Source of the DNA: an uncultured Geobacteraceae bacterium
Lineage (GTDB): Bacteria; Desulfobacterota; Desulfuromonadia; Geobacterales; Pseudopelobacteraceae
NCBI GenBank assembly: GCA_903958085.1
Contig: CAJBRY010000695.1
Location: 1-42,362, forward strand
Length of the DNA stretch: 42,362 nucleotides
Direction of reading: 5' to 3'
Each line of letters opens with the position of its first letter. The first letter of the stretch is position 1. Below the pieces are notes generated by a model. It saw only the letters and a list, made by a program, of their open reading frames with translations, searched no databases and was not told the DNA's origin. Below are positions 3,240 to 25,577 of the stretch, in pieces. The position numbers were made by a program, and so were the translations under genes.

Positions 3240-4832
3240 TCAATAATACTTCGGAACCGACTCGTTCTCCAACTCCAGATCGTCATCCTCATCAACCTCT
3301 GTCTGAAACATATAAGTGCTAGTCGGATCCGCTAAAATATCATACAAATAAGCAAGACAATCTAAATTATCAACATGCCATAACGGAAACTTACTGCATT
3401 CTTCCTGGAACGAAAATACGACCTCATCACATAAATCATCAACATAATGCAACTTCCCATTGTTTAAAGGCCAAGATAACGCCGCCTCTATGCGATAATT
3501 CTTGCCCCTGCCTTCAGGAGACAAAAGTAACAAATTGCCGCCATATTTACCCTTCTTCTTAATACTCAAATACCGGCCCCTCGCTACCAATCCCTTCCTT
3601 ATATGCTCATATGTCGTGTCATTCGCTACCTTCTCTATCCCCAGTATCTCTACCCGACCATTCCGTATATACAAACTACACGCCGCATCAATCGCGCTGG
3701 ATAACCCCATCTGCCCTACTATCCCATCCTCTATATACACATCACTATTCCCTAACTCATCCAAATATGGCCTTACACTCACACATAACATCGCCCAACT
3801 ATCATTCCCATTACCACTCTGTACTTCCTTATCCCCAGCAGGATCTATAATAATAAACTTGATCCTGTCCTTCGGTAAATCATCCCTCTTTACTACCTTA
3901 AACCTCCCAAAATCTAACTTGATATTATGACTCGGCGTGGGATTGCACAACTGCTGCGAATTAAACGACCCATCTGTCTTCATACTATCTAAATACTTCT
4001 GACTGAAAAATACCGGCTTCCCCAGGATAGTCCCATCTTCTGTAGCCGGTATCAACCGTAACTCATACATCTTATCCCCATATATATCCAACTTGTTCCC
4101 CATCTTGATCAATACCCCATTATGACTGTAATACGTCCCAATTATCTGCTCAGTACCCCCATCTACCCCTAAATTACGACTGATCTCAAACCTCTCATAA
4201 CATAACTTCAACTGCTCAGGACTCGTCGCCAAATCAGCCGTCTCACAATCATCATATATCCTGTGATCCCAATGCCCCCCAGTAGGCATCCCATCTATTA
4301 ACCCTGCCGCCTCCACTGTATGCTCCTTCCTGCTCGTAGACTTACGCTTTACCCTGATCCCTCCCTGTAAACTCCAACTGCTGCTCTGCGTGTCAGGCTT
4401 CTCATAGAGTATGTCAGGAAAACACCACCTCATTAAATCATTCTCCAATATCTTCCGTATAGCATCTAAAAACTTCTCCGCTGCCGGCTTCTTATAAGAA
4501 AATATTACTGTCGTACTCTCAGCATCATTCACTATCCGCTGTACCGTCCCTGCTATCGTTATTATCGTAGACTTGAAATGCTCCCTCGCCCAGATATCTA
4601 TCGTCCCACTCTCCCTACCTTCCTCACACATCCTGCACATCTGTACCACAAAAGGATGATTCGCCTTCGCTATCCCCATTACAAAATATACAACGAAAAA
4701 CCTGTCCGTCTTTATTAACTCCCTAAACGCTTTCCTCTTGTCCAACTCCCCCTTCGCTATATCCACAAATATCCGCGCATAATCATGCTTGTAATTATTA
4801 CAACATTCTACAAATTCATTGAATATCTCCAC
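3240..4832 (-). CDS. terL: Terminase large subunit (packaging ATPase/nuclease)
   Basis: The 530-residue product has both terminase domains. In the ATPase half, an adenine-site/Walker A-like segment WAREHFKST (81-89) is followed by a Walker B-like RIYDD (191-195). In the RNase H-fold nuclease half, the acidic residues are visible as FIIIDPAGD (D330), GIEK (E400) and HVDNLD (D488/D491). It cuts and pumps DNA into the prohead at the portal. The start is GTG with AAGGGG upstream. Codon use is striking from about 3500 to 4830: the sense strand avoids C, with ATA for Ile, AGG/CGG for Arg, GGG for Gly and GCG for Ala preferred, unlike the capsid gene. It lies between the small terminase and portal genes. 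Confidence 0.9.
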   Translation of the reverse strand: MEIFNEFVECCNNYKHDYARIFVDIAKGELDKRKAFRELIKTDRFFVVYFVMGIAKANHPFVVQMCRMCEEGRESGTIDIWAREHFKSTIITIAGTVQRIVNDAESTTVIFSYKKPAAEKFLDAIRKILENDLMRWCFPDILYEKPDTQSSSWSLQGGIRVKRKSTSRKEHTVEAAGLIDGMPTGGHWDHRIYDDCETADLATSPEQLKLCYERFEISRNLGVDGGTEQIIGTYYSHNGVLIKMGNKLDIYGDKMYELRLIPATEDGTILGKPVFFSQKYLDSMKTDGSFNSQQLCNPTPSHNIKLDFGRFKVVKRDDLPKDRIKFIIIDPAGDKEVQSGNGNDSWAMLCVSVRPYLDELGNSDVYIEDGIVGQMGLSSAIDAACSLYIRNGRVEILGIEKVANDTTYEHIRKGLVARGRYLSIKKKGKYGGNLLLLSPEGRGKNYRIEAALSWPLNNGKLHYVDDLCDEVVFSFQEECSKFPLWHVDNLDCLAYLYDILADPTSTYMFQTEVDEDDDLELENESVPKYY

Positions 4833-5219
4833 TTTTTACCCCTTCCCTAGGCATAGCCTGACTCGTTATCTCCTGCCCTGCGCCAAATGCGAGCGTTCAT
4901 ATTATGAACATACTACACTATATCCCCCCCAAAAAAAACTTTTGATGAAAATTACAGGCGTACGGAGAGGGGAACTATCAATTCAGTAGGCACGCGGGCA
5001 AAAGGGGGGGGCGGGGGTCAAAAACAGGGCGGGGGGTGTGGAAACACGGCCAGCCAGACATGGAATTTGATTTTACAGAGTTTACTGAGAACTCGTTACC
5101 GGGGGGAGGAATCACACTGATATTACAAGTGCCTATTATCACTGACTTTATTTGAGGGTTGTTTGACTACATGCCCCCATAACTGCCCCCAAAAGTTTTT
5201 GCATACCATCTCTACCACG
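4833..5219. other. 387-base terS-terL gap with G/C tracts and a skew switch
   Basis: No convincing gene is seen here. The gap holds an inverted repeat GTTCAT-ATT-ATGAAC (4895-4909), a C7-A8 tract (4924-4938), and on the plus strand a run of G tracts (G8 at 5004-5011, G5 at 5013-5017, G3 at 5027-5029, G6 at 5031-5036, another G6 near 5101). The spacing of these tracts could support a G-quadruplex. The plus strand changes abruptly from C-rich (through terL) to G-rich at about 4940. A position between the terminase genes makes a packaging signal (pac or cos) a reasonable guess, but nothing in the sequence proves it. Confidence 0.4.
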
Positions 5220-6274: not shown

Positions 6275-6310
6275 GAGAACTAACTAAAAAAAGGAGTAAA
6301 AAATGAGCAA
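6275..6310 (+). repeat. 36-base leader repeat, copy 1
   Basis: A 36-base segment beginning GAGAACTAACTAAAAAAAGG and ending in ATGAGCAA is repeated exactly at 6590-6625. It includes the ribosome site and the first codons of two successive small genes, so the two genes share the same translation-start module. Confidence 0.8.
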
Positions 6311-6589: not shown

Positions 6590-6625
6590 GAGAACTAACT
6601 AAAAAAAGGAGTAAAAAATGAGCAA
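6590..6625 (+). repeat. 36-base leader repeat, copy 2
   Basis: Exact copy of 6275-6310, again placing the same ribosome site and the first codons (ATGAGCAA) at the start of the next small gene. A related but shorter match (AAGGAGTAAAAAATGAGC) starts the RecT-like gene at 13507. Confidence 0.8.
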
Positions 6626-8872: not shown

Positions 8873-9209
8873 ACATTGTGGTTCTGGACGAATTATCGAT
8901 GCCAGAATACAACCGTGGCATATGCCAGCCGTTAAATGTCAACATTGTGGATGGCATAAAGAGTTGCCTTTTGAGTGGCAGAAATCGACTGTACCTGCTC
9001 GGCTTGCCGAACTAGACCGGGCGATGTTCCGTTACTGCTCTACCCCAAAATGCGGCGAACGGATCGACGAAAGAAACCTATCTGGCAAGTGCAGATCTTG
9101 CCGGGGTATTGAACAGGCCGAGGCAGCACTACAGAAGAAGTTAGCGAGGAGAGTTGAGAGACGCGAACGGAGAGAGGCATCACGTCAATGTCAGCTTAGT
9201 AGGAGGTGA
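8862..9209 (+). CDS. Zinc-ribbon protein
   Basis: The 115-residue product has three possible metal sites: CEHCG (3-7) with CQHCGWH (26-32), then YCSTPKCGERI with CRSCRG. It ends in a very basic helix (KKLARRVERRERREASRQ). That combination suggests a nucleic-acid-binding protein. The start overlaps the previous gene and has AAAGGGGGGGG upstream. No specific family recognised. Confidence 0.65.
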   Translation: MKCEHCGSGRIIDARIQPWHMPAVKCQHCGWHKELPFEWQKSTVPARLAELDRAMFRYCSTPKCGERIDERNLSGKCRSCRGIEQAEAALQKKLARRVERRERREASRQCQLSRR

Positions 9210-9213
9210 CCTG

Positions 9214-9369
9214 ATGAGGCACACTAAACTGCATCTTGCACATCACTGTCCCAGGTGTCAGGCATGGACGAAAGGGAAATGTTACTGCGACATATGTCTC
9301 GGGGTATTGCGGCGTGTATATATTGTCACTGCTAAAATCCCCTATCATATGCTGAAAGAATGGAGGTAA
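9214..9369 (+). CDS. Small zinc-finger-like protein
   Basis: The 51-residue product contains HHCPRCQAWTKGKCYCDICL, two CxxC pairs typical of a zinc ribbon, followed by a hydrophobic segment. The frame is open further upstream into the preceding gene, but the ATG at 9214 is preferred because AGGAGGTGA lies directly before it. Function unknown. Confidence 0.65.
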   Translation: MRHTKLHLAHHCPRCQAWTKGKCYCDICLGVLRRVYIVTAKIPYHMLKEWR

Positions 9370-9372
9370 ACG

Positions 9373-9558
9373 ATGCAAAAGCCTAGATCAACGGCAGAAA
9401 TGGCCTGGATAACTCTCCTACTTTTTGCGGTAGTCGGGTTGGCTGGCTGGCTGGTGTGGCGCATTGAGTTCGAATCCGAGCCAAGAGGCGAGGTACAGGT
9501 CAAGTCTATGCAGGGCGTAATTCGTTATCAGGCAAGGCAAATTGAAAAGGAATTGTGA
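9373..9558 (+). CDS. Small single-pass membrane protein
   Basis: The 61-residue product has one clear membrane segment (about 11-30, WITLLLFAVVGLAGWLVWRI) and a short polar tail predicted to be cytoplasmic or periplasmic. The ribosome site TGGAGG precedes the ATG. In an early operon such a protein might act at the envelope (for example superinfection exclusion), but nothing specific is visible. Confidence 0.65.
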   Translation: MQKPRSTAEMAWITLLLFAVVGLAGWLVWRIEFESEPRGEVQVKSMQGVIRYQARQIEKEL

Positions 9559-9609
9559 GTTAACGGCTTATGTGTCCACTCTGCAACCTGCCGTGATAAG
9601 GAGGTCCCC

Positions 9610-9798
9610 GTGCAGATCACCATTGAATATTTGGACGGCACCACTGAGGTATTCCCCGAAACGTCACGCGCTGGCGGAAGCTACTGCACTTCCGGCAAGG
9701 CAGAAATGGGGTGGTACATCGTGTCGGATGCTTATGGCAATCAGACGAAAATTCCGGCAGACAGAATCAAGGCGGTGCGTACCTCTTGTGGCGGTTAG
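9610..9798 (+). CDS. Small hypothetical early protein, GTG start
   Basis: The 62-residue product starts with GTG, five bases after a perfect AAGGAGG. It is predicted mostly beta: MQITIEYLDGTTEVFPETSR, then a WYIVSDAYGNQTKIPADRI segment. I recall short phage proteins with a similar hairpin layout but cannot name a family. Another frame is open across this stretch but has no comparable start signal. Confidence 0.65.
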   Translation: MQITIEYLDGTTEVFPETSRAGGSYCTSGKAEMGWYIVSDAYGNQTKIPADRIKAVRTSCGG

Positions 9799-9809
9799 AT
9801 GGAGGTTTT

Positions 9810-9884
9810 ATGTTTCGCTGCGAAGTACCAGAAGATCAAAAGTCAATTCACTTGGCTTGTGGCGAAATAGTGAGTTTTAGTTAG
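9810..9884 (+). CDS. 24-residue mini-gene or gene remnant ahead of the first GACNN array
   Basis: An ATG with GGAGG four bases upstream opens a 24-codon frame ending EIVSFS-stop. The last 22 bases, including the stop, are identical to the end of the gene at 10591-11148, which also ends EIVSFS directly before a GACNN array. It could be a real small peptide or what remains after recombination between arrays removed a larger gene. I favour the remnant reading. Confidence 0.4.
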   Translation: MFRCEVPEDQKSIHLACGEIVSFS

Positions 9885-9897
9885 CCAGGCGCGTCGT

Positions 9898-9970
9898 GAC
9901 AGGACGGGACAGGACGCGACAGGACGCGACTAGACACGACACGACCAGACTTGACAAGACTTGACAAGAC
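9898..9970 (+). repeat. GACNN pentanucleotide array 1
   Basis: Fifteen consecutive GAC triplets sit in strict 5-base register (9898, 9903, 9908 ... 9968), with the two intervening bases varying. The array ends in GACAAGACAAGGGATTTATA and leads into AAGGGGTAG and the start of the gene at 9995. Related triplets (GGC at 9888, GTC at 9893) extend the register upstream. It begins a few bases after the mini-gene stop. Confidence 0.9.
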
Positions 9971-9994
9971 AAGGGATTTATAAGGGGTAGGTAA

Positions 9995-10474
9995 ATGGAA
10001 ATTATTCAACAAATGAGCATCGATGCACGGCTGATCTCGGATCGGATGGCCGTTCTGCCAGAAGGCGCAATAATTACATATGAAACTATCGAGTCGGTTG
10101 CTGGCCGAAATCGGGAAAAATTAAGGGGTGCAATTACTACCGCACTACGGGAACAACTGAGGCATGGTCGGGTGTTTTGTGGTATCCGCATGGTAGGGTA
10201 TCAGCGTATCGGAGACACCAAAAAAGTTGATTTGTCGTTAACCAATTTGAAACGGGTACGGAAAGTCGTTGCGAAAAGCAAACGTATTCTTGAAGCCGTG
10301 GACGATTTTAGCAGCCTACCGAATACATACAAAGTTCAACACAATGCTGCCTATTCGATGTGCGGCACTATTGAACAGTTTACGAGACAGAGTAGTGTAA
10401 AACGAATTGAAGACCAATGTCTGCGAGTAAACAGCGTATTGCCGTTTGAAGAGACATTGAAGCAGTTCAGTTAG
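9995..10474 (+). CDS. Winged-helix-like phage protein of unknown function
   Basis: The 159-residue product follows GACNN array 1 and uses AAGGGG as ribosome site. Its first 75 residues have the layout IDARLISDRMAVLPEGAIIT YETIESVAGRN, a helix with ALREQLRHGRVFCGIRMVGY and then QRI. I associate this with a small phage family of winged-helix type (AIxYexLsxxiGRd...R..L..AR..L....VFxxVRgxGxxRl). The remaining half is basic then polar. It is flanked on both sides by GACNN arrays. Confidence 0.6.
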   Translation: MEIIQQMSIDARLISDRMAVLPEGAIITYETIESVAGRNREKLRGAITTALREQLRHGRVFCGIRMVGYQRIGDTKKVDLSLTNLKRVRKVVAKSKRILEAVDDFSSLPNTYKVQHNAAYSMCGTIEQFTRQSSVKRIEDQCLRVNSVLPFEETLKQFS

Positions 10475-10477
10475 CCC

Positions 10478-10530
10478 GACGGGGCTTGGCAGGACCCGAC
10501 GCGACCTGACCTGACAAGACACGACAAGAC
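10478..10530 (+). repeat. GACNN pentanucleotide array 2
   Basis: Eleven units lie in strict 5-base register (10478 to 10528): nine GAC and two GGC (10483, 10488). The array begins a few bases after the stop of the preceding gene and ends in the same core as array 1, GACAAGACAAGGGATTTATA, followed by AGGGGTAG. The next gene starts about 50 bases further on with its own AAGGGGAG site. Confidence 0.9.
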
Positions 10531-10590
10531 AAGGGATTTATAAGGGGTAGCAACGGCGCATAGCCAACACATAACAAGGGGAGATACACT

Positions 10591-11148
10591 ATGAAAACAG
10601 CGATTGTCAAATTAACCTCCACAACGCCCTATTCACAGGGCAAGCATTACACAACGCCAAAGCTAGACAAAGAATTACACTGCGATTACGAACAACGTAC
10701 ATGGGCTGATCGTTTACATTTAGATGAGGATGGGAACGTGTTTATTCCTCCGATGGCACTCAAAAACTGTCTGTCGGAATGTGCAAAATACCTCGGGATT
10801 CAAGTTCCAGGCAAAGGGAAAGCGAATTATACAAAACATTTCGAGGCTGGCTTAATGGTGATGGATCGGATCTTGTTATCTGTTCATAAATCAGAGGTAG
10901 AGAGCGAGGAGTTTTTTGTTCCTTCTGATGGACGCAGAGGCGGTGGCTCCAGGGTTCTGAAACGCTTCCCGCTGATTCGGAAATGGGCTTCAACCGCGAC
11001 AGTATATATCCTGGATGAAACGATCACTCGTGAGGTGTTGCAGCTACACTTAGAAGGTGCCGGTTCTTTTATCGGGGTGGGTAGGTTTCGGCCTAGAAAT
11101 AATGGATTCTACGGCAGATTTTTAGCTGAAATAGTGAGTTTTAGTTAG
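10591..11148 (+). CDS. Unknown protein with RAMP/Cas7-like motif layout
   Basis: The 185-residue product lies between GACNN arrays 2 and 3. I do not recognise it with certainty. The layout DGNVFIPPMALKNCLSECAK (about residues 47-66), and near the C-terminus GAGSFIGVGRFRPRNNGFYG followed by RF, resembles RAMP-fold proteins of the Cas7 type: an xIPxxxLKxxLR-like helix and a late glycine-rich loop. A middle segment (SDGRRGGGSRVLKRFPLIRK) is basic and could bind nucleic acid. The similarity is at motif level only and may be chance. Other possibilities are an unrelated single-strand-binding or recombination accessory protein. Confidence 0.5.
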   Translation: MKTAIVKLTSTTPYSQGKHYTTPKLDKELHCDYEQRTWADRLHLDEDGNVFIPPMALKNCLSECAKYLGIQVPGKGKANYTKHFEAGLMVMDRILLSVHKSEVESEEFFVPSDGRRGGGSRVLKRFPLIRKWASTATVYILDETITREVLQLHLEGAGSFIGVGRFRPRNNGFYGRFLAEIVSFS

Positions 11149-11151
11149 CAA

Positions 11152-11234
11152 GGCATGACTGGGCGGGACGCGACTAGACACGACCGGACAAGACGGGACA
11201 GGACGAGACCGGACATGACACGACACGACAAGAC
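11152..11234 (+). repeat. GACNN pentanucleotide array 3
   Basis: Seventeen units in strict 5-base register from 11152 to 11232 (15 GAC, two GGC at 11152 and 11162). It starts directly after a stop codon whose preceding 22 bases match those before array 1, and ends with GACAAGACAAGGGATTTATA as in arrays 1 and 2. The downstream gene starts about 40 bases later after a G-rich segment. Confidence 0.9.
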
Positions 11235-11273
11235 AAGGGATTTATAAGAAAGAGGTGGGGGGGGAATTACGAG

Positions 11274-12113
11274 ATGGTTGCAGGTAGCCCACGCAAGGCC
11301 ACTGATGAACAACTGGTATCCACATATAAAGAACTCGGTAGCATTTGGGCTGTCGCTGATAAGTTCAAAATGTGTGGTCAATCAGTCCATGAACGACTGC
11401 AAAAACTCAGCGCGATACCTCAGTGGAAATGGACTGTCGAGGAAGATGTGCTACTGGTCCAGCTCTATAAAAAAGCAGGGGATAACAAAACCTTTCTTGA
11501 TGAGCTGGAAGTTATTTCCAAGCGTCACAAGTCTAATATTTGTAGGCGTGCCAGAAAACTAAACCTCACTAACAAAAACAGGAAGTACGAAGAAATACTT
11601 GTTACTGAAATGGCTGACCGAGCAGGTAGGCAGATAGAGACAAAAGGTATGGCTGGCAAGACTCATTCAGATGAGTCAAAAAAACGTAACTCAATATCCA
11701 CCAGCACTGCAAGATCAAGAACTGTTTCCGGGAAACGCAAAGACCTTAGTTGCTTTTTCAGGAGTAAGATCGAAGCGAACTACGCAAGATTTCTAAATTA
11801 CATCGGCCTGACCTGGGCATACGAACCAAAGACATTCATTTTTGAAGAGATTAAGCGCGGGACACTCAGCTATACACCCGATTTTTATTGTCCAGACAAC
11901 GGCAAATGGTACGAAGTCAAAGGGTGGTTTGATGCTACTTCTGTTACAAGGATGAAGAGGTTCAAGATTTATTATCCAGAGGAAGCAAAAAACACGGTGA
12001 TAGTTGCTCAGTCAAAGAAAACATACGAACAGGCTCTTGTTCTTGGTTATGACGTGATTCGCTATGAAGAGGTCGAGAAGCAATACAAAAATTTGCCAAA
12101 TTGGGAAAAATAA
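11274..12113 (+). CDS. PD-(D/E)XK homing-type endonuclease with HTH domains
   Basis: The 279-residue product has an N-terminal helix-turn-helix (about 10-45), a second Myb/HTH-like helical unit (50-97, KWTVEEDVLLVQLYKK...), a NUMOD3-like linker (124-143, KGMAGKTHSDESKKRN) and a C-terminal nuclease domain: SKIEANYARFL (E167), YTPDF (D203) and WYEVKG (E214, K216). This is the layout of free-standing phage nucleases related to homing endonucleases. It follows GACNN array 3. It may cut target DNA lacking this locus and so spread itself. A role in recombination or resolution is the main alternative. Confidence 0.7.
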   Translation: MVAGSPRKATDEQLVSTYKELGSIWAVADKFKMCGQSVHERLQKLSAIPQWKWTVEEDVLLVQLYKKAGDNKTFLDELEVISKRHKSNICRRARKLNLTNKNRKYEEILVTEMADRAGRQIETKGMAGKTHSDESKKRNSISTSTARSRTVSGKRKDLSCFFRSKIEANYARFLNYIGLTWAYEPKTFIFEEIKRGTLSYTPDFYCPDNGKWYEVKGWFDATSVTRMKRFKIYYPEEAKNTVIVAQSKKTYEQALVLGYDVIRYEEVEKQYKNLPNWEK

Positions 12114-12131
12114 CAGGGGAGCGAACAAACT

Positions 12132-12398
12132 ATGAGATGTGCTGAAGTAAATTATAAGGGGTTACCCTTATCCGTATATTATGAATTAGTTCCACCGTAT
12201 CGAGGTAGCAGAGACAAGTACGGAGCGCCCGAGGAACCGGACGAAGATGGGGGAATAGAGGTTGATGACGTTAGCATAACGTGTTGTCATGTGTCCTGCC
12301 AAGAAATAAGCATTATGGAATTATTGTCAGAGACGCAGATGGAAGAGATTATCAGGTTGGTTACTGAATACATAGGGGAGGAATCAGATGCTATATGA
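12132..12398 (+). CDS. Small acidic phage protein
   Basis: The 88-residue product has the pattern YYELVPPYRGSRDKYGAPEE PDEDGGIEVDDVSI, then a helix (ETQMEEIIRLVTEYIGEE). I recall a widespread phage family with a similar GxxDrYG.p.ePdep.eieI core of unknown function. The ribosome site is AGGGGAG. It overlaps the next gene by eleven bases. Confidence 0.6.
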   Translation: MRCAEVNYKGLPLSVYYELVPPYRGSRDKYGAPEEPDEDGGIEVDDVSITCCHVSCQEISIMELLSETQMEEIIRLVTEYIGEESDAI

Positions 12399-12657
12399 AT
12401 GTTCGTGCGGTAGTACCTATACAAGCCAGGAGGGGGTAGTGCTATGTACGTCTAATGAACATGGGAGTGGCAAAGACAAATATAGGTCATCGAGCAAGAA
12501 TTTCGGGCATGAATTGAACATGGGGATTGAAGCATTCTGTTGGGAGTGCGGTATTCCTCTACTCACCACGTTTGAAATTTCGACAGGAGGGACTTGTATT
12601 TCTATGAGGGTAGTTCCTCATATCTGTTCAGTGGCTGACGATGACGACAACAAATAA
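12388..12657 (+). CDS. Small cysteine-containing protein
   Basis: The 89-residue product begins MLYECSCGSTYTSQEGVVLC, a CxC...C pattern, and has a later CWECG, suggesting a metal-binding ribbon. The start has GGGGAGG upstream and overlaps the previous gene, indicating coupling. It sits directly before the recombination exonuclease. No family recognised. Confidence 0.6.
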   Translation: MLYECSCGSTYTSQEGVVLCTSNEHGSGKDKYRSSSKNFGHELNMGIEAFCWECGIPLLTTFEISTGGTCISMRVVPHICSVADDDDNK

Positions 12658-14452: not shown

Positions 14453-15283
14453 ATGAAATGGGTAAAACTACATCACCGCTTGATTGAATCTCTGTGTTTT
14501 GGAGACTCGGCGTTATTGCATATATGGATATATTTATTGTTAGATGCAGTCCATATGGAGACTGAAATTTTGATTGGACGTCAGGTCATAATATTACAAC
14601 CCGGTCAGATCGTTACAAACAGGATGACCATAGCAGCTAAAACAGGGATACAGGAATCAAAAGTTGAAAGAATCCTTAAAAAATTGGTAAGTGAACAACA
14701 AATTGAACAACAAAAATTTACAAAATACCGAATAATATCAATAGTTAACTGGCTTCCATACCAACAAAGTGAACAGCAAAGTGAACAACAAATACAAAAT
14801 GTGCAAAAAAGCGGTCTAAAAGGGCAAATTGAACAACAAAGTGAACAACAAAGTGAACAACAAAAATTTGCTAAAAATTCAATAATACCAATAATTAACA
14901 TTGATGCCTGTTCGCAAAGTGAACAGCAAAGTGAACAACAAAATAATGCCATGCAAACAACGAAATGTTTTGATGTTTTTTGGGCGGCTTATCCAAGGAA
15001 AACAGGTAAGGAAATAGCACGGCAGTCGTGGAAGCGTTTAGCAGATCCTGTAGCGACACTCGACCTGATTTTAAAGGCTTTGGCTTGGCAAACGGTTTCA
15101 GCAGACTGGAACAAGGACAACGGCCAGTTTATACCCATGCCGTCTACATACCTGAATCAAGGAAGATGGCAGGACGAGCCATTTCAACGACATTCGATAA
15201 CTCAACTAAACTATAATTCCAAAACATTACAACGCAACGCACTAAACGCCCAGGCAGCGTTAGAATTTGGAGAGGGGAAATGA
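14453..15283 (+). CDS. Replication initiator (O-like/replisome organiser)
   Basis: The 276-residue product starts MKWVKLHHRLIESLCFGDSA, the usual opening of phage replisome-organiser winged-helix proteins, and its N-terminal ~95 residues include RMTIAAKTGIQESKVERILK as DNA-reading helix. A glutamine-rich linker follows, made by repeated SEQQ units. A C-terminal domain (from about 175, FDVFWAAYPRKTGKEIARQS WKRL) is typical of the DnaT/O-like family. The linker DNA is a set of 12-base iterons, as in lambda O, where the origin lies inside the initiator gene. It is coupled to the helicase-loader-like gene by ATGA. Confidence 0.8.
   Translation: MKWVKLHHRLIESLCFGDSALLHIWIYLLLDAVHMETEILIGRQVIILQPGQIVTNRMTIAAKTGIQESKVERILKKLVSEQQIEQQKFTKYRIISIVNWLPYQQSEQQSEQQIQNVQKSGLKGQIEQQSEQQSEQQKFAKNSIIPIINIDACSQSEQQSEQQNNAMQTTKCFDVFWAAYPRKTGKEIARQSWKRLADPVATLDLILKALAWQTVSADWNKDNGQFIPMPSTYLNQGRWQDEPFQRHSITQLNYNSKTLQRNALNAQAALEFGEGK
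14690..14943 (+). repeat. Iteron clusters; probable replication origin
   Basis: Nine copies of a TGAACA(A/G)CAA unit lie in four clusters (about 14690-14714, 14769-14793, 14829-14865, 14919-14943), spaced 12 bases within clusters. The flanks are A+T-rich (near 14712-14750 and 14862-14900). In lambda the corresponding arrangement in gene O is the origin of replication. The same DNA encodes the SEQQ linker of the initiator. Confidence 0.65.
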
Positions 15284-16520: not shown

Positions 16521-17609
16521 ATGGATACATCAGTCGAGAGTACCGCATCTCAACAGCCTGTCATCAAAGCTTATAAAGGCTTTGACAAAAATATGCAGTG
16601 CCGTGGTTATCAGTACAAGGTCGGTGAGTCTTACGAACACCAGGGGAAAGTGAAAGCATGCGAGGGCGGTTTTCATTCGTGCGAATATCCGCTTGATGTA
16701 TTCAAATATTATGAACCTGCTTCAGCAGAATTTGCAGAAGTAGAGGCCGCTGGTGAGATCAGCAAGCATGGAGATGATACTAAGGTCTCATCTTCAAAAC
16801 TGACGGTTAAAGCCTCCATCGGGTTACCTGGTCTCATCAGTGCCGCCATAGAATATACGATGGCCCGTATTAAAACCAATGGTACCACCAGCAACTCAGG
16901 CAGTGACGGTGCTGCTAGCAACTCAGGCAGTTACGGTGCTGCTAGCAACTCAGGCGAGTACGGTGCTGCTAGCAACTCAGGCGATAACGGTGCTGCTAGC
17001 AACTCGGGTTACAAAGGTGCTGCTAGCAACTCAGGCGAGTACGGTGCTGCTAGCAACTCAGGCGATAACGGTGCTGCTAGCAACTCGGGTTACAAAGGTG
17101 CTACTAGCAACTCAGGCGATGCCGGTGCTGCTAGCAACTCAGGCATCCAAGGTGCTGCTAGCAACTCAGGCGAGTACGGTGCTGCTAGCAACTCAGGCAG
17201 TTACGGTGCTGCTAGCAACTCAGGCACAAGAGGTGCTGCTAGCAACTCAGGCCACCAAGGCGCTGCTAGCAACTCAGGCCTCCAAGGTGCTGCTAGCAAC
17301 TCAGGCCACCGCGGCGCTGCTAGCAACTCAGGCCTCCAAGGTGCTGCTAGCAACTCAGGCAGTTACGGTGCTGCTAGCAACTCAGGATCGGACGGAATAG
17401 CTGCCGCGTTTGGTTATGAGGGTAAATCCAAATCAACAGAGAGCGGAGCAATCGTCTGTGTCTACCGAGATGACGAGGGCAAGCTTGTCCATATCAAGGC
17501 CAGCAAAGTAGGCGACAATGGTATCAAGGCTGATACCTGGTACATGCTGGATTCCGATGGCGAGTTTGTGGATTGCCGAAACACTGAAAAGTTGGAAGCA
17601 GGATTATAA
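16521..17609 (+). CDS. DUF7666-like protein with 19 nine-residue repeats
   Basis: The 362-residue product has an N-terminal domain (about 13-85) reading IKAYKGFDKNMQCRGYQYKV, CEGGFHSCEYPLDVFKYY and DDTKVSSSKLTV, which I associate with DUF7666. Residues 123-293 are 19 tandem units of consensus ASNSGxxGA, then a unique C-terminal domain (about 294-362). Only two positions per unit vary, so the array should form a regular solenoid. Proteins with this plan occur in many phages; the function is unknown. The ATG at 16521 has GGAGG seven bases upstream. Confidence 0.7.
   Translation: MDTSVESTASQQPVIKAYKGFDKNMQCRGYQYKVGESYEHQGKVKACEGGFHSCEYPLDVFKYYEPASAEFAEVEAAGEISKHGDDTKVSSSKLTVKASIGLPGLISAAIEYTMARIKTNGTTSNSGSDGAASNSGSYGAASNSGEYGAASNSGDNGAASNSGYKGAASNSGEYGAASNSGDNGAASNSGYKGATSNSGDAGAASNSGIQGAASNSGEYGAASNSGSYGAASNSGTRGAASNSGHQGAASNSGLQGAASNSGHRGAASNSGLQGAASNSGSYGAASNSGSDGIAAAFGYEGKSKSTESGAIVCVYRDDEGKLVHIKASKVGDNGIKADTWYMLDSDGEFVDCRNTEKLEAGL
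16887..17399 (+). repeat. 19 x 27-base coding tandem repeat
   Basis: Exactly 513 bases make 19 units of 27 bases. About 21 bases per unit are nearly invariant (core GGTGCTGCTAGCAACTCAGG), and six bases encode the variable residue pair. Pairs in order: SD SY EY DN YK EY DN YK DA IQ EY SY TR HQ LQ HR LQ SY SD. The run EY-DN-YK is duplicated, showing growth by 81-base block duplication. Confidence 0.9.
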
Positions 17610-18678: not shown

Positions 18679-18742
18679 AGAGGGAAATCGGGAAATCGGG
18701 AGGTCTATCAGAGCAGCACACCCCGAGATGGTGGTATACGGA

Positions 18743-18797
18743 ACACACGAGAAACACACGAGAAACACACGAGAAACACACGAGAAACACACGAGAA
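18743..18797 (+). repeat. Five 11-base tandem repeats before the kinase gene
   Basis: Five exact copies of ACACACGAGAA lie head to tail, ending ten bases before the ATG of the kinase gene and running into its AAGGAG ribosome site. A period of 11 bases is about one helical turn, so bound proteins would line up on one face of the DNA. Confidence 0.9.
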
Positions 18798-18810
18798 ACA
18801 AGGAGATCAC

Positions 18811-23349: not shown

Positions 23350-25086
23350 TTATGTGTGGGTTATTTTAATGTAAGCGTATTTGAGAGAAACAGTAGAGCC
23401 ACTAATCTGTTTACCCTGTGCATACAATCCGTTAAGAGTTATGGCTCCCATGTACGTATTTGGAGCAGAAGCCACTGTTATTGAGGCGTTTGTACCCGAA
23501 CACACTATTGTAGCCGTAGCGGAGTAAGGATCGGCATTTGTATTAGCTACCGTAACTGTTACAATGTACGTTCCGCTAGTCATTAGAAACAAATCAGTAG
23601 CAGTATTGGTTAACGAGGAAACAGCACCGTTCCCGGATAAATAACTTGGCGAGGTAAACGGCAACGTTACGGTATGGGTAGTTGGCGTAATAACCATCAG
23701 GGGGTTATTATAGTCTGCTGTACCGCCAGTTAACCAATAGTGATAACCGTTACTAGAATCGTATGTTGCTGCCCCGCTCTCTGCGCTTACATCAAGAAAA
23801 GTAGTTCCGGTTGACCGAACAATATGCAATTTCCCTTTAGTGCTGAGAGTTTTAGCTGAGAAATCCTGTGTTATCAGGCCAGCCAGTTGTGCATACACAC
23901 CATCAAAATAAGTTTTCAGGACGCTCTTCACATATGCCCAGGTCATCTTATGGAGCAGTCCACCGGTATGATTCCTCATTGCGACTGTATCTGTGTCATC
24001 AGGAGCGGTGATTGCCGTTGCTGCATTTATCAGTGCACCAATGGTGGTGGCTGTTTCGGCAGGGGCGGCTGACAAGGCATCTGTGGCGAATGTCGCCAGC
24101 GATTTGTCTCCCCTCAGGTACTGTGCAGTTGTGCCGGCGGTTATAGCCGGTTCTTTACCGTAGAACGTAGACCAATCCGCGGCAGTCAAGGCACCCCTGT
24201 TTGCTGCCGAGGCACTTGGAACTTGCAGGGTTATAACTGGGGTGCTTGTTCCGGTGGCGACAGTGGAGGAGAGATCCGTTCCGGTTGTACCCAATGTGAG
24301 AGCTGCCACGGATGTGACTGTCCCGACATTGGCCGTTGCTCCGGTCGCTATGCCATCGAGCTTAGTTATCTGGGTAGCTGTGGCGTAACCATTTACACTT
24401 GCTGTAGCTGCTGCCATACTTATTACAGGAGTGGTAGTCCCTGTGGCTACAGATACTGGAGCCGTTCCAGATACAGATGTTACCGTACCTACGTTACCTG
24501 TATAAAGCGTATCAAAGTAAGTCTTCAAGAACGCCTTAACATTCGTCCACGTTATCTTCTTGAGAACCGAAGACTCAGCAGTAGCAACAAGGTCAGTGTC
24601 GTTCGGGGTAGCGGCTGTGGATCCGTTAATCAGTGCGCCTATCCGAGCGGCAGTCTCGTCCCCTGTGTTGGTTCCTGTGATACCGTCTAACTTCGTTATC
24701 TGGGTAGAGGTAGCGTAACCGTTGACGCTTGCTGTAGCTGCTGCCATACTTATGACAGGAGTGGTAGTCCCTGTGGCTACAGATACTGGAGCAGTTCCAG
24801 ATACAGATGTTACCGTGCCTACGTTACCTGTATAAAGCGTATCAAAGTAAGTCTTTAGAAAAGCCTTTAGCACAGTCCAAGTTGTACGAAGCAGTCCAGT
24901 ACCGCGCAAAGAGACAACTTCGTCAGTATTTACAGGAGTAGGATCAGAAGTCAGCAACACCCCAAGCGGAGAAACTACCGTGCCAAGACCAGTGAGAGTT
25001 GCGTCAGTCTCTATTGGTTCCAGTTCGGCTATAGAAGTAAGAACCAGGTCAGCCTTCCCGGTCTGCGAATTGTTCTTGTATTTCAT
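23350..25086 (-). CDS. Tail fiber protein with internal repeats
   Basis: The 578-residue product is Thr/Ala/Gly-rich and repetitive: the unit GTVTSVSGTAPVSVATGTTT PVISMAAATASVNGYA...QITKLDGI occurs twice, and WTxxKAFLKTYFDTLYTGN occurs three times in varied form. The C-terminal ~170 residues are unique and beta-rich, as expected of a receptor-binding tip. The start ATG at 25086 overlaps the stop of the upstream gene (ATGA); a TTG four codons earlier is less likely. It lies between an adaptor-like protein and the tailspike. Confidence 0.75.
   Translation of the reverse strand: MKYKNNSQTGKADLVLTSIAELEPIETDATLTGLGTVVSPLGVLLTSDPTPVNTDEVVSLRGTGLLRTTWTVLKAFLKTYFDTLYTGNVGTVTSVSGTAPVSVATGTTTPVISMAAATASVNGYATSTQITKLDGITGTNTGDETAARIGALINGSTAATPNDTDLVATAESSVLKKITWTNVKAFLKTYFDTLYTGNVGTVTSVSGTAPVSVATGTTTPVISMAAATASVNGYATATQITKLDGIATGATANVGTVTSVAALTLGTTGTDLSSTVATGTSTPVITLQVPSASAANRGALTAADWSTFYGKEPAITAGTTAQYLRGDKSLATFATDALSAAPAETATTIGALINAATAITAPDDTDTVAMRNHTGGLLHKMTWAYVKSVLKTYFDGVYAQLAGLITQDFSAKTLSTKGKLHIVRSTGTTFLDVSAESGAATYDSSNGYHYWLTGGTADYNNPLMVITPTTHTVTLPFTSPSYLSGNGAVSSLTNTATDLFLMTSGTYIVTVTVANTNADPYSATATIVCSGTNASITVASAPNTYMGAITLNGLYAQGKQISGSTVSLKYAYIKITHT
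24352..24873 (-). repeat. Direct duplication inside the fiber gene
   Basis: About 180 bases at 24352-24530 and 24688-24873 are closely similar, including a shared stretch reading CTTGCTGTAGCTGCTGCCAT on the plus strand. The copies differ mostly at third positions. They encode the duplicated shaft unit of the fiber. Confidence 0.75.
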
Positions 25087-25577
25087 GTGATATACCAAGT
25101 GCTGTTGGAAAGGCTAAAATTTACAGTCTCGCCCTGAACGGTAAGCGAGTAAGTAGCCAGGCCGTTAATAGTCTGACCAGCTACACCTGGAGAGATCACG
25201 ACGGCAGTAGCCGAAGCATCGGATTTGCAGACTATCACCGAACCACCATCCGGCAGAGTATAAGTCGGGTGGGTGCTGGCGTCTTGAACTATCATTGAAC
25301 CATCTTCACCTGAAGCCGTGATATTGTCCCGGGAATACCGGATCGTGCCATTAGTATTTTTTATGACTATGAGATAGTTACCTGCACCGTAAAGTTGAGC
25401 GGTAGAATTGGCATCTAAAGTATAAGGATTGGCTGCTTGTGTAGTTTTGAACTGGTCGAGGTAAACCGGTTTAAGAGTGGTAGTGCCAGCTTCGTAAAAG
25501 GTTAGAGTCCCGTTAATCAACGCTCCATCAATCGCCGTTCTGACTTGAGAAAGCAAAAAGTCAAATTGAGTCGCCAT
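25083..25577 (-). CDS. Fiber-module adaptor or virion-binding protein
   Basis: The 164-residue product has the segment NGTLTFYEAGTTTLKPVYLD followed by NPYTLDANSTAQLYGAGNYL. This is the pattern of N-terminal virion-binding domains of podovirus tailspikes and fibers (xxFxxAGTxTPxxVYxD...NPvxLDaxG). Here it is a separate small protein, coupled by ATGA to the fiber gene, and likely anchors the fiber or spike to the tail. GGAGG precedes the ATG. Confidence 0.65.
   Translation of the reverse strand: MATQFDFLLSQVRTAIDGALINGTLTFYEAGTTTLKPVYLDQFKTTQAANPYTLDANSTAQLYGAGNYLIVIKNTNGTIRYSRDNITASGEDGSMIVQDASTHPTYTLPDGGSVIVCKSDASATAVVISPGVAGQTINGLATYSLTVQGETVNFSLSNSTWYIT

Follow-up and report, generated by a model that had tools for sequence, protein, structure and literature searches.

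The stretch of DNA analysed here (the window, 42,362 nucleotides) contains, between positions 9888 and 11248, three arrays in which the triplet GAC recurs in a strict 5-base register, which raises the question of what such arrays are for and which protein reads them. The window encodes a terminase, a portal and a major head protein as well as relatives of RecT and exonuclease VIII, and thus belongs to a phage or prophage. The arrays comprise 15, 11 and 17 GACNN units and share one identical end, GACAAGACAAGGGATTTATAAG, as the initial annotation had described; 39 of the 43 units have GAC as their triplet, the other four GGC. The pattern of five GACs with NN spacers (up to two mismatches) has 36 matches, whereas 100 dinucleotide shuffles average 0.03, and GAC or GGC stays in register for up to 17 units, a length that never exceeds 4 in 200 first-order Markov simulations, so that chance is no explanation for these arrays.

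The locus is very probably a phage VIPR system whose three arrays are guide RNA genes with GAC in place of GGC or GGT, an assignment based on the protein, the anatomy of the arrays, their tail and their neighbourhood. VIPR is described (PMC13142463, bioRxiv 2026, version 2) as a CRISPR-like, RNA-guided system of phages for use against rival genomes, made up of the RAMP protein Vipr and of vrRNAs, each of which contains 9–16 GGY/NN units and an invariable 3′ tail. This preprint was the sole match on VIPR in the literature searched, while a search on intergenic pentanucleotide repeats in phage genomes gave no match. The features of the locus are as follows.

9864–9884, plus strand: leader of array 1, a copy of the last vipr codons (..EIVSFS stop), from repeat D5
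9888–9972, plus strand: array 1, candidate vrRNA guide region, 15 GACNN units from 9898, from the register scan
9973–9990, plus strand: constant 3′ tail of array 1, GGGATTTATAAGGGGTAG, from repeat D2, extending over the likely ribosome-binding region of the gene that follows
9995–10474, plus strand: Vipr-associated gene P0002, 159 aa, candidate vap, from an HMM match near vipr in 61/65 loci
10478–10532, plus strand: array 2, candidate vrRNA guide region, 11 units (GACNN run 10478–10530), from the register scan
10533–10550, plus strand: constant 3′ tail of array 2, from repeat D2
10591–11148, plus strand: vipr gene P0001, 185 aa, predicted RAMP protein, from homology and predicted fold, between arrays 2 and 3
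11152–11236, plus strand: array 3, candidate vrRNA guide region, 17 units (run 11152–11234), from the register scan
11237–11248, plus strand: constant 3′ tail of array 3, GGGATTTATAAG

Array 1 extends in register by two degenerate units (GGCGC and GTCGT, 9888–9897), and its NN order is (GC GT) AG GG AG GC AG GC TA AC AC CA TT AA TT AA AA. The corresponding order is GG TT AG CC GC CT CT AA AC AA AA in array 2 and AT TG GG GC TA AC CG AA GG AG GA CG AT AC AC AA AA in array 3. Arrays 1 and 3 have an NN block of three units in common, which is not unusual (12/139 same-locus pairs share three). The invariable 3′ tail of VIPR has its counterpart in AAGGGATTTATAAG, which is identical after all three arrays. 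The distances from the last GAC to the start codon of the next frame discussed here are 25, 61 and 40 nt (starts 9995, 10591 and 11274), and the earlier description of the arrays as lying just before a gene applies only loosely to array 2 with its 61 nt. The arrays had also been said to follow a stop codon; TAG (9882–9884) does precede array 1, but it closes only a short frame of 24 codons (ATG 9810) or 57 codons (GTG 9711), the end of which copies the 3′ end of gene 10591–11148 (repeat D5, 9864–9984 versus 11128–11248, 79% identity). The leader and array 1 together look like the end of vipr followed by array 3, and by this likeness the cassettes seem to duplicate as units of leader, array and tail.

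The tail of array 1, folded alone (9966–10000), gives –0.7 kcal/mol and no stable hairpin. The fold of array 1 together with its flanks is somewhat more stable than those of shuffled sequences (z –2.0; 4 of 200), while arrays 2 and 3, folded with their tails, show no such gain (z –1.0 and –0.2). No Rfam match is found within 9000–12500, and promoters and terminators are counted about as often as in shuffles. Judged by eye, none of the window's direct repeats forms a CRISPR repeat-spacer array. Several other repeats occur in the window: in a gene at 16521–17609 a 27-bp unit, which codes for a nine-residue motif of the G-A-A-S-N-S-G type, recurs about 17 times or more (D1), and a second long open frame (16879–17400) runs through these repeats; a perfect 11-bp tandem repeat, AACACACGAGA, lies at 18742–18800 (D7); repeated stretches like CAACAAAGTGAACAA at 14684–14942 form a SEQQ-rich segment in frame 14453–15283 (D4, D6); identical 36-nt stretches at 6275–6310 and 6590–6625 surround the start codons of two small genes (D8); and a direct repeat of 204 nt (24350–24553 and 24680–24883, 88% identical) is contained in the minus-strand frame 23350–25098 (D3).

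The gene between arrays 2 and 3 encodes P0001, which has no match in Pfam and a single PHROG match of unknown function. In a phmmer search of the PDB its sole match up to E 10 is 36pp, 'SUSP1 Vipr protein' (E 2.4e-7), and a profile of 49 P0001 relatives finds 36pp at E 9e-8, with unrelated chains from 0.053. The comparison of the P0001 family with SUSP1 Vipr by hhalign gives 97% (E 8.2e-11) over 168 columns, with 27% identity over the aligned columns. The single-sequence model of P0001 is poor (pLDDT 38.9), and the alignment-based AlphaFold2 model (pLDDT 92.3, pTM 0.85) was used instead. Foldseek returned 124 PDB matches to this model at E ≤ 1e-3, of which the 50 listed are all chains of CRISPR effector complexes; 36pp is absent among the fold-search matches listed. 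Structural realignment puts type VII complex chains and Csm3 on top (Z 12.3 to 11.7). The C-terminus of P0001 contains a glycine-rich segment, GSFIGVGRFRPRNNGFYGRF, in which G158, G162, G164, F166, R167, G172, Y174, G175 and F177 are invariant among 49 sequences; as it aligns with the GVGDWRPR segment of SUSP1, it may correspond to the RAMP glycine-rich loop. Published features of Vipr include, besides this loop, a thumb domain in contact with the guide. By homology and predicted fold, P0001 is thus the minimal RAMP homologue (Vipr) expected of a VIPR system.

One scan of viral contigs with P0001 yielded 64 loci with 44–71% identity. An array scanner that assumes no triplet was applied to 66 sequences (399 kb) at a score of at least 14, and it detected 131 arrays, 128 of them in 54 of the 64 viral loci and three in the window, against none in one mononucleotide shuffle of the same sequences; L001, an own copy of the window, was dropped from these counts, and L066–L084 stand outside the 64-locus counts. 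Ten of the 64 loci have no array at score 14, seven of which show weaker ones at score 10, a threshold used without a shuffle control. At score 10 the same scanner finds four GGT arrays in SUSP1 and three GGC arrays in LESphi2, near the Vipr relatives of these phages, and six of these seven also reach score 14. The triplet is GGC in 87 arrays, CGC in 24, GAC in 19 and GTC in one, and 130 of the 131 arrays read GGC, CGC or GAC in the direction of vipr. The single GTC array is ambiguous; this lone GTC/NN array (L031, 3589–3766) has the reverse complement of GAC and represents either a fourth triplet or an inverted array.

The positional entropies were calculated from 117 of the 131 arrays, without repeated sequences and without one array truncated at a contig end; the GTC array and the two final units of each array were excluded. 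In the GGC, GAC and CGC classes the triplet positions have 0.33–0.96 bit and the NN positions 1.95–2.00 bits, which bears out the unbroken register with free spacer bases claimed by the initial annotation. Its view that the arrays are no product of recent simple tandem duplication likewise agrees with a triplet that is nearly fixed and NN that are nearly random in the relatives. As a refutation it had named relatives lacking the register and having no conserved gene attached; the opposite was found, though array length varies. Of the 117 non-redundant arrays, 102 finish with AA or GA as their last NN, which makes for a constant end. Locus L050 contains seven GGC arrays at 3563–5076 and an eighth at 2853–2890; each of the seven is followed by a nearly identical GGAACTGGCAGTGGG tail, with a matching CCCACTGC in six of the seven, and as judged by eye these two elements are likely to form a hairpin tail, unlike the tail in the window. 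Very long arrays are present in L052 (2695–2962, 54 units; 3589–3806, 44 units) and L041 (3969–4206, 48 units), which exceed the 9–16 units of the SUSP1 type several times and may possibly hold overlapping guides.

The gene between arrays 1 and 2 encodes P0002, relatives of which were found in 36 of the 64 viral loci by single-sequence search. A profile of 25 sequences (that of the window and 24 from the single-sequence search) identifies a relative in 61 of 65 loci, the window included, 57 of them downstream and four upstream of vipr; three of the four loci without a relative (L012, L020 and L046) end less than 150 nt from vipr. By hhalign, P0002 matches the neighbour gene of LESphi2 (66%, E 5.7e-5), and SUSP1 Vap1 only faintly (2%, E 0.02). 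A weak match to the alkyltransferase DNA-binding region (E 0.037) hints at DNA binding, and P0002 is possibly a winged-helix DNA-binding partner. The gene adjoining array 3 (11274–12113) resembles Holliday-junction resolvases, has no counterpart within the flanks examined in any of the 64 viral loci, and is probably outside the VIPR system. The neighbours of the RAMP gene are P0002 and this resolvase-like gene, and not a cas operon with a CRISPR array.

The arrays differ in length and content between contigs with near-identical flanks (L009/L010/L011/L013 and L020/L021), in which the 500 nt upstream are 97.6–100% identical and the downstream sequence, where available, 99.2–100%. Block sharing was compared after removal of trailing AA/GA units. 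L009 and L010 have the same first array, and L007 and L008 differ by one unit; several near-identical-flank pairs share NN blocks of 4–9 units, L020 and L021 have two blocks in opposite order, and one 7-unit block is present in both arrays of L013, while L009/L013, L010/L013 and the first arrays of L009/L011 have no block of four or more units in common. Such blocks are shared by 2 of 139 same-locus pairs versus 0.2% of 2990 between-locus pairs, and with one contig per near-identical group by 1 of 135 same-locus pairs, too few for a general excess. These comparisons suggest block-wise remodelling, and part of the differences among near-identical metagenome contigs could be repeat assembly errors. 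Near-identical flanks with different arrays offer natural material on how a noncontiguous guide is renewed, a question raised by the path proposed to lead from VIPR to CRISPR.

The triplet varies as well. Among the 41 triplet-labelled rows of a Vipr tree built from 49 of the 65 sequences, 7 carry GAC, and explaining them takes 7 changes, of which well-supported (starred) branches force at least 4; the bootstrap of this tree had yet to converge. The GAC label is no more clustered on this tree than shuffled labels, while CGC is clustered; L002, the nearest relative of the window's Vipr (71%), has mostly GGC, and no Vipr residue convincingly tracks the GAC triplet. A tentative proposal, which we regard as rather doubtful, is that the fixed triplet behaves as a 'dialect' that switches freely, with the arrays of a lineage kept coherent and remade by recombination between GAC- or GGC-rich units. 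If so, Vipr would not read the middle base of the triplet strictly, and guide blocks would be shuffled without any Cas1-like adaptation machinery. The changes of GAC on the Vipr tree and the remodelled arrays on near-identical flanks are additions to VIPR as published.

According to the published work on two clades, those of SUSP1 and P. fulva, vrRNAs are expressed and form ribonucleoproteins, and their NN pair with double-stranded DNA, one target base being skipped per unit, with repression as the outcome; the predicted targets are mostly in satellite phages or prophages (PMC13142463). Cas7 is described there as assembling on RNA in repeated subunits. By analogy, the three arrays of the window would be transcribed in the sense of vipr into vrRNAs with GAC-NN units and a constant 3′ tail, on which Cas7-like Vipr copies would line up to form a ribonucleoprotein, presumably one per five-nucleotide unit. 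Vipr would hold the GAC triplet, behaving here as GGY does there, and present the two free bases; successive NN would then pair with the double-stranded DNA of a competing phage or mobile element, one base being skipped between dinucleotides, and this pairing would silence the target. The gene at 9995–10474 would provide an accessory protein. Guide function, binding by Vipr and the nature of the targets are thus extended to the phage of the window from the SUSP1 and P. fulva work. This would place a protein family of environmental phages, found in 64 viral loci with one query, among the VIPR systems described in 2026, and a repeat code not tied to GGY would make the role of each triplet base testable by swaps of GAC, GGC and CGC with matched Vipr.

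Seven exact gapped-pattern scans of viral contigs and genomes for natural targets gave no matches or matches at chance level; these scans used exact blocks of 9–10 units only, by which diverged targets would be missed. Patterns of nine units with a 1-nt skip have 0, 0, 1, 0 and 0 stretches in viral contigs, and the single match, L068, agrees at 4 of 18 bases outside the searched core and was taken as chance. In genome contigs, ten units of array 3 have no stretch, while nine units of array 1 have eight, all with 3–6 of 18 bases agreeing outside the core and likewise attributed to chance. When 106 guides were compared with the 64 viral loci and the window at skips of 0–3, with arrays masked and guides of fewer than 8 units and trailing AA units dropped, no skip stands out. 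Eight stretches around five same-genus terminase genes and the window, searched with trailing AA units removed, have best scores within the range of shuffled guides, and in these related prophage stretches skip 1 is no better than skips 0, 2 and 3. As the window's Vipr and terminase are absent from the other 38 genomes of the genus searched, suitable target material is scarce. The composition of the NN gives one indirect sign of the skip rule: over the 117 arrays, codon positions 1–2 (either strand) fit better than 2–3 and 3–1 in all 1000 bootstraps, as a skip of the wobble base would predict, although the margin over the next phase, in composition only, is small (0.024 bit per NN), and in the GAC arrays alone positions 1–2 and 2–3 tie (–3.971 versus –3.972).

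The arrays might otherwise act in cis as mRNA operators, on which a protein multimer (Vipr or a TRAP-like ring) blocks the adjacent ribosome-binding site for autoregulation, with no guiding. The TRAP site consists of 11 (G/U)AG triplets with spacers of 2–3 nt just upstream of genes and is not known to have a guiding role, and this geometry is the same as that of the arrays: the leader RNAs bound by TRAP resemble the window in having triplets two bases apart just upstream of genes, and differ from it in the triplet itself and in their protein, no TRAP-like protein having been identified in the window. It is true that each of the three arrays of the window precedes a gene and that the array 1 tail extends over the likely ribosome-binding region, but in some relatives arrays follow each other in tandem only about 20–50 nt apart with no gene between (L050, 4694–5076; L034, 4298–4684; L047, 3928–4206), the free bases are nearly maximally diverse, which an operator does not need, and the arrays are remodelled while their flanks stay near-identical. 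We therefore consider operators improbable as the sole function, though autoregulation is possible as a side role beside guiding.

A coating of the 5-bp repeats on the DNA itself by a protein for regulation, partition or recombination, as the initial annotation had suggested, is very improbable. Two units do make about one helical turn, and a ribbon-helix-helix (RHH)-like frame (8384) and an XRE-like gene (7980) are located near the arrays; no evidence was found for the RHH protein as the binder. The single orientation of 130 of 131 arrays relative to vipr is what is expected of RNA, and a gene predicted to have the RAMP fold, that of CRISPR guide-binding subunits, lies next door and travels with the arrays, which argues against protein-coated DNA and equally against segregation or recombination sites. 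Hardly credible is a functionless product of slippage, a plain unstable tandem repeat: array length does vary between close contigs, but slippage would keep the whole unit alike, while each of the three triplet classes combines three almost invariant positions with two almost random ones, and in 54 of 64 viral loci the arrays accompany a single gene family.

Among known systems, the Cas7 family of CRISPR (type VII chains and Csm3) resembles P0001 in predicted fold, with Z up to 12.3. The Cas7 guide is contiguous and interrupted at every sixth position (PMC13142463), in contrast to the 5-nt unit with its fixed triplet in the window, where no CRISPR array is found among the repeats. The Pseudomonas phage LESphi2 encodes a Vipr relative (WIL01370.1; 27.4%, E 4e-8 by tblastn with P0001) and, like the window, has three triplet/NN arrays and a neighbour gene resembling P0002; it differs in its triplet, GGC, and in the position of all three arrays upstream of its Vipr gene, and is a different phage. 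Seven types of VIPR are described, with 'GGY/NN motifs, or a related consensus' (PMC13142463), and the pentameric units of a fixed triplet and hypervariable NN in the window fall within this description, GAC relying on the phrase 'or a related consensus'. The Escherichia phage SUSP1 represents type II, with Vipr AVU07_agp039, its neighbour agp038 (taken as vap1) and four arrays. Its Vipr is distant from P0001, the arrays of the window lie between operon genes, and array 3 with 17 units is one above the 9–16 given for SUSP1-type vrRNAs. The triplet GAC, and not the GGY of type II (the SUSP1/P. fulva clade), and a tail of array 1 without a stable hairpin, unlike the SUSP1 tail, which is described as structured with a pseudoknot, count against the VIPR reading, and the locus of the window is not VIPR type II as described. 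It nevertheless shares with SUSP1 a small RAMP protein, triplet/NN arrays in the sense of vipr, a constant 3′ tail and a small adjacent gene.
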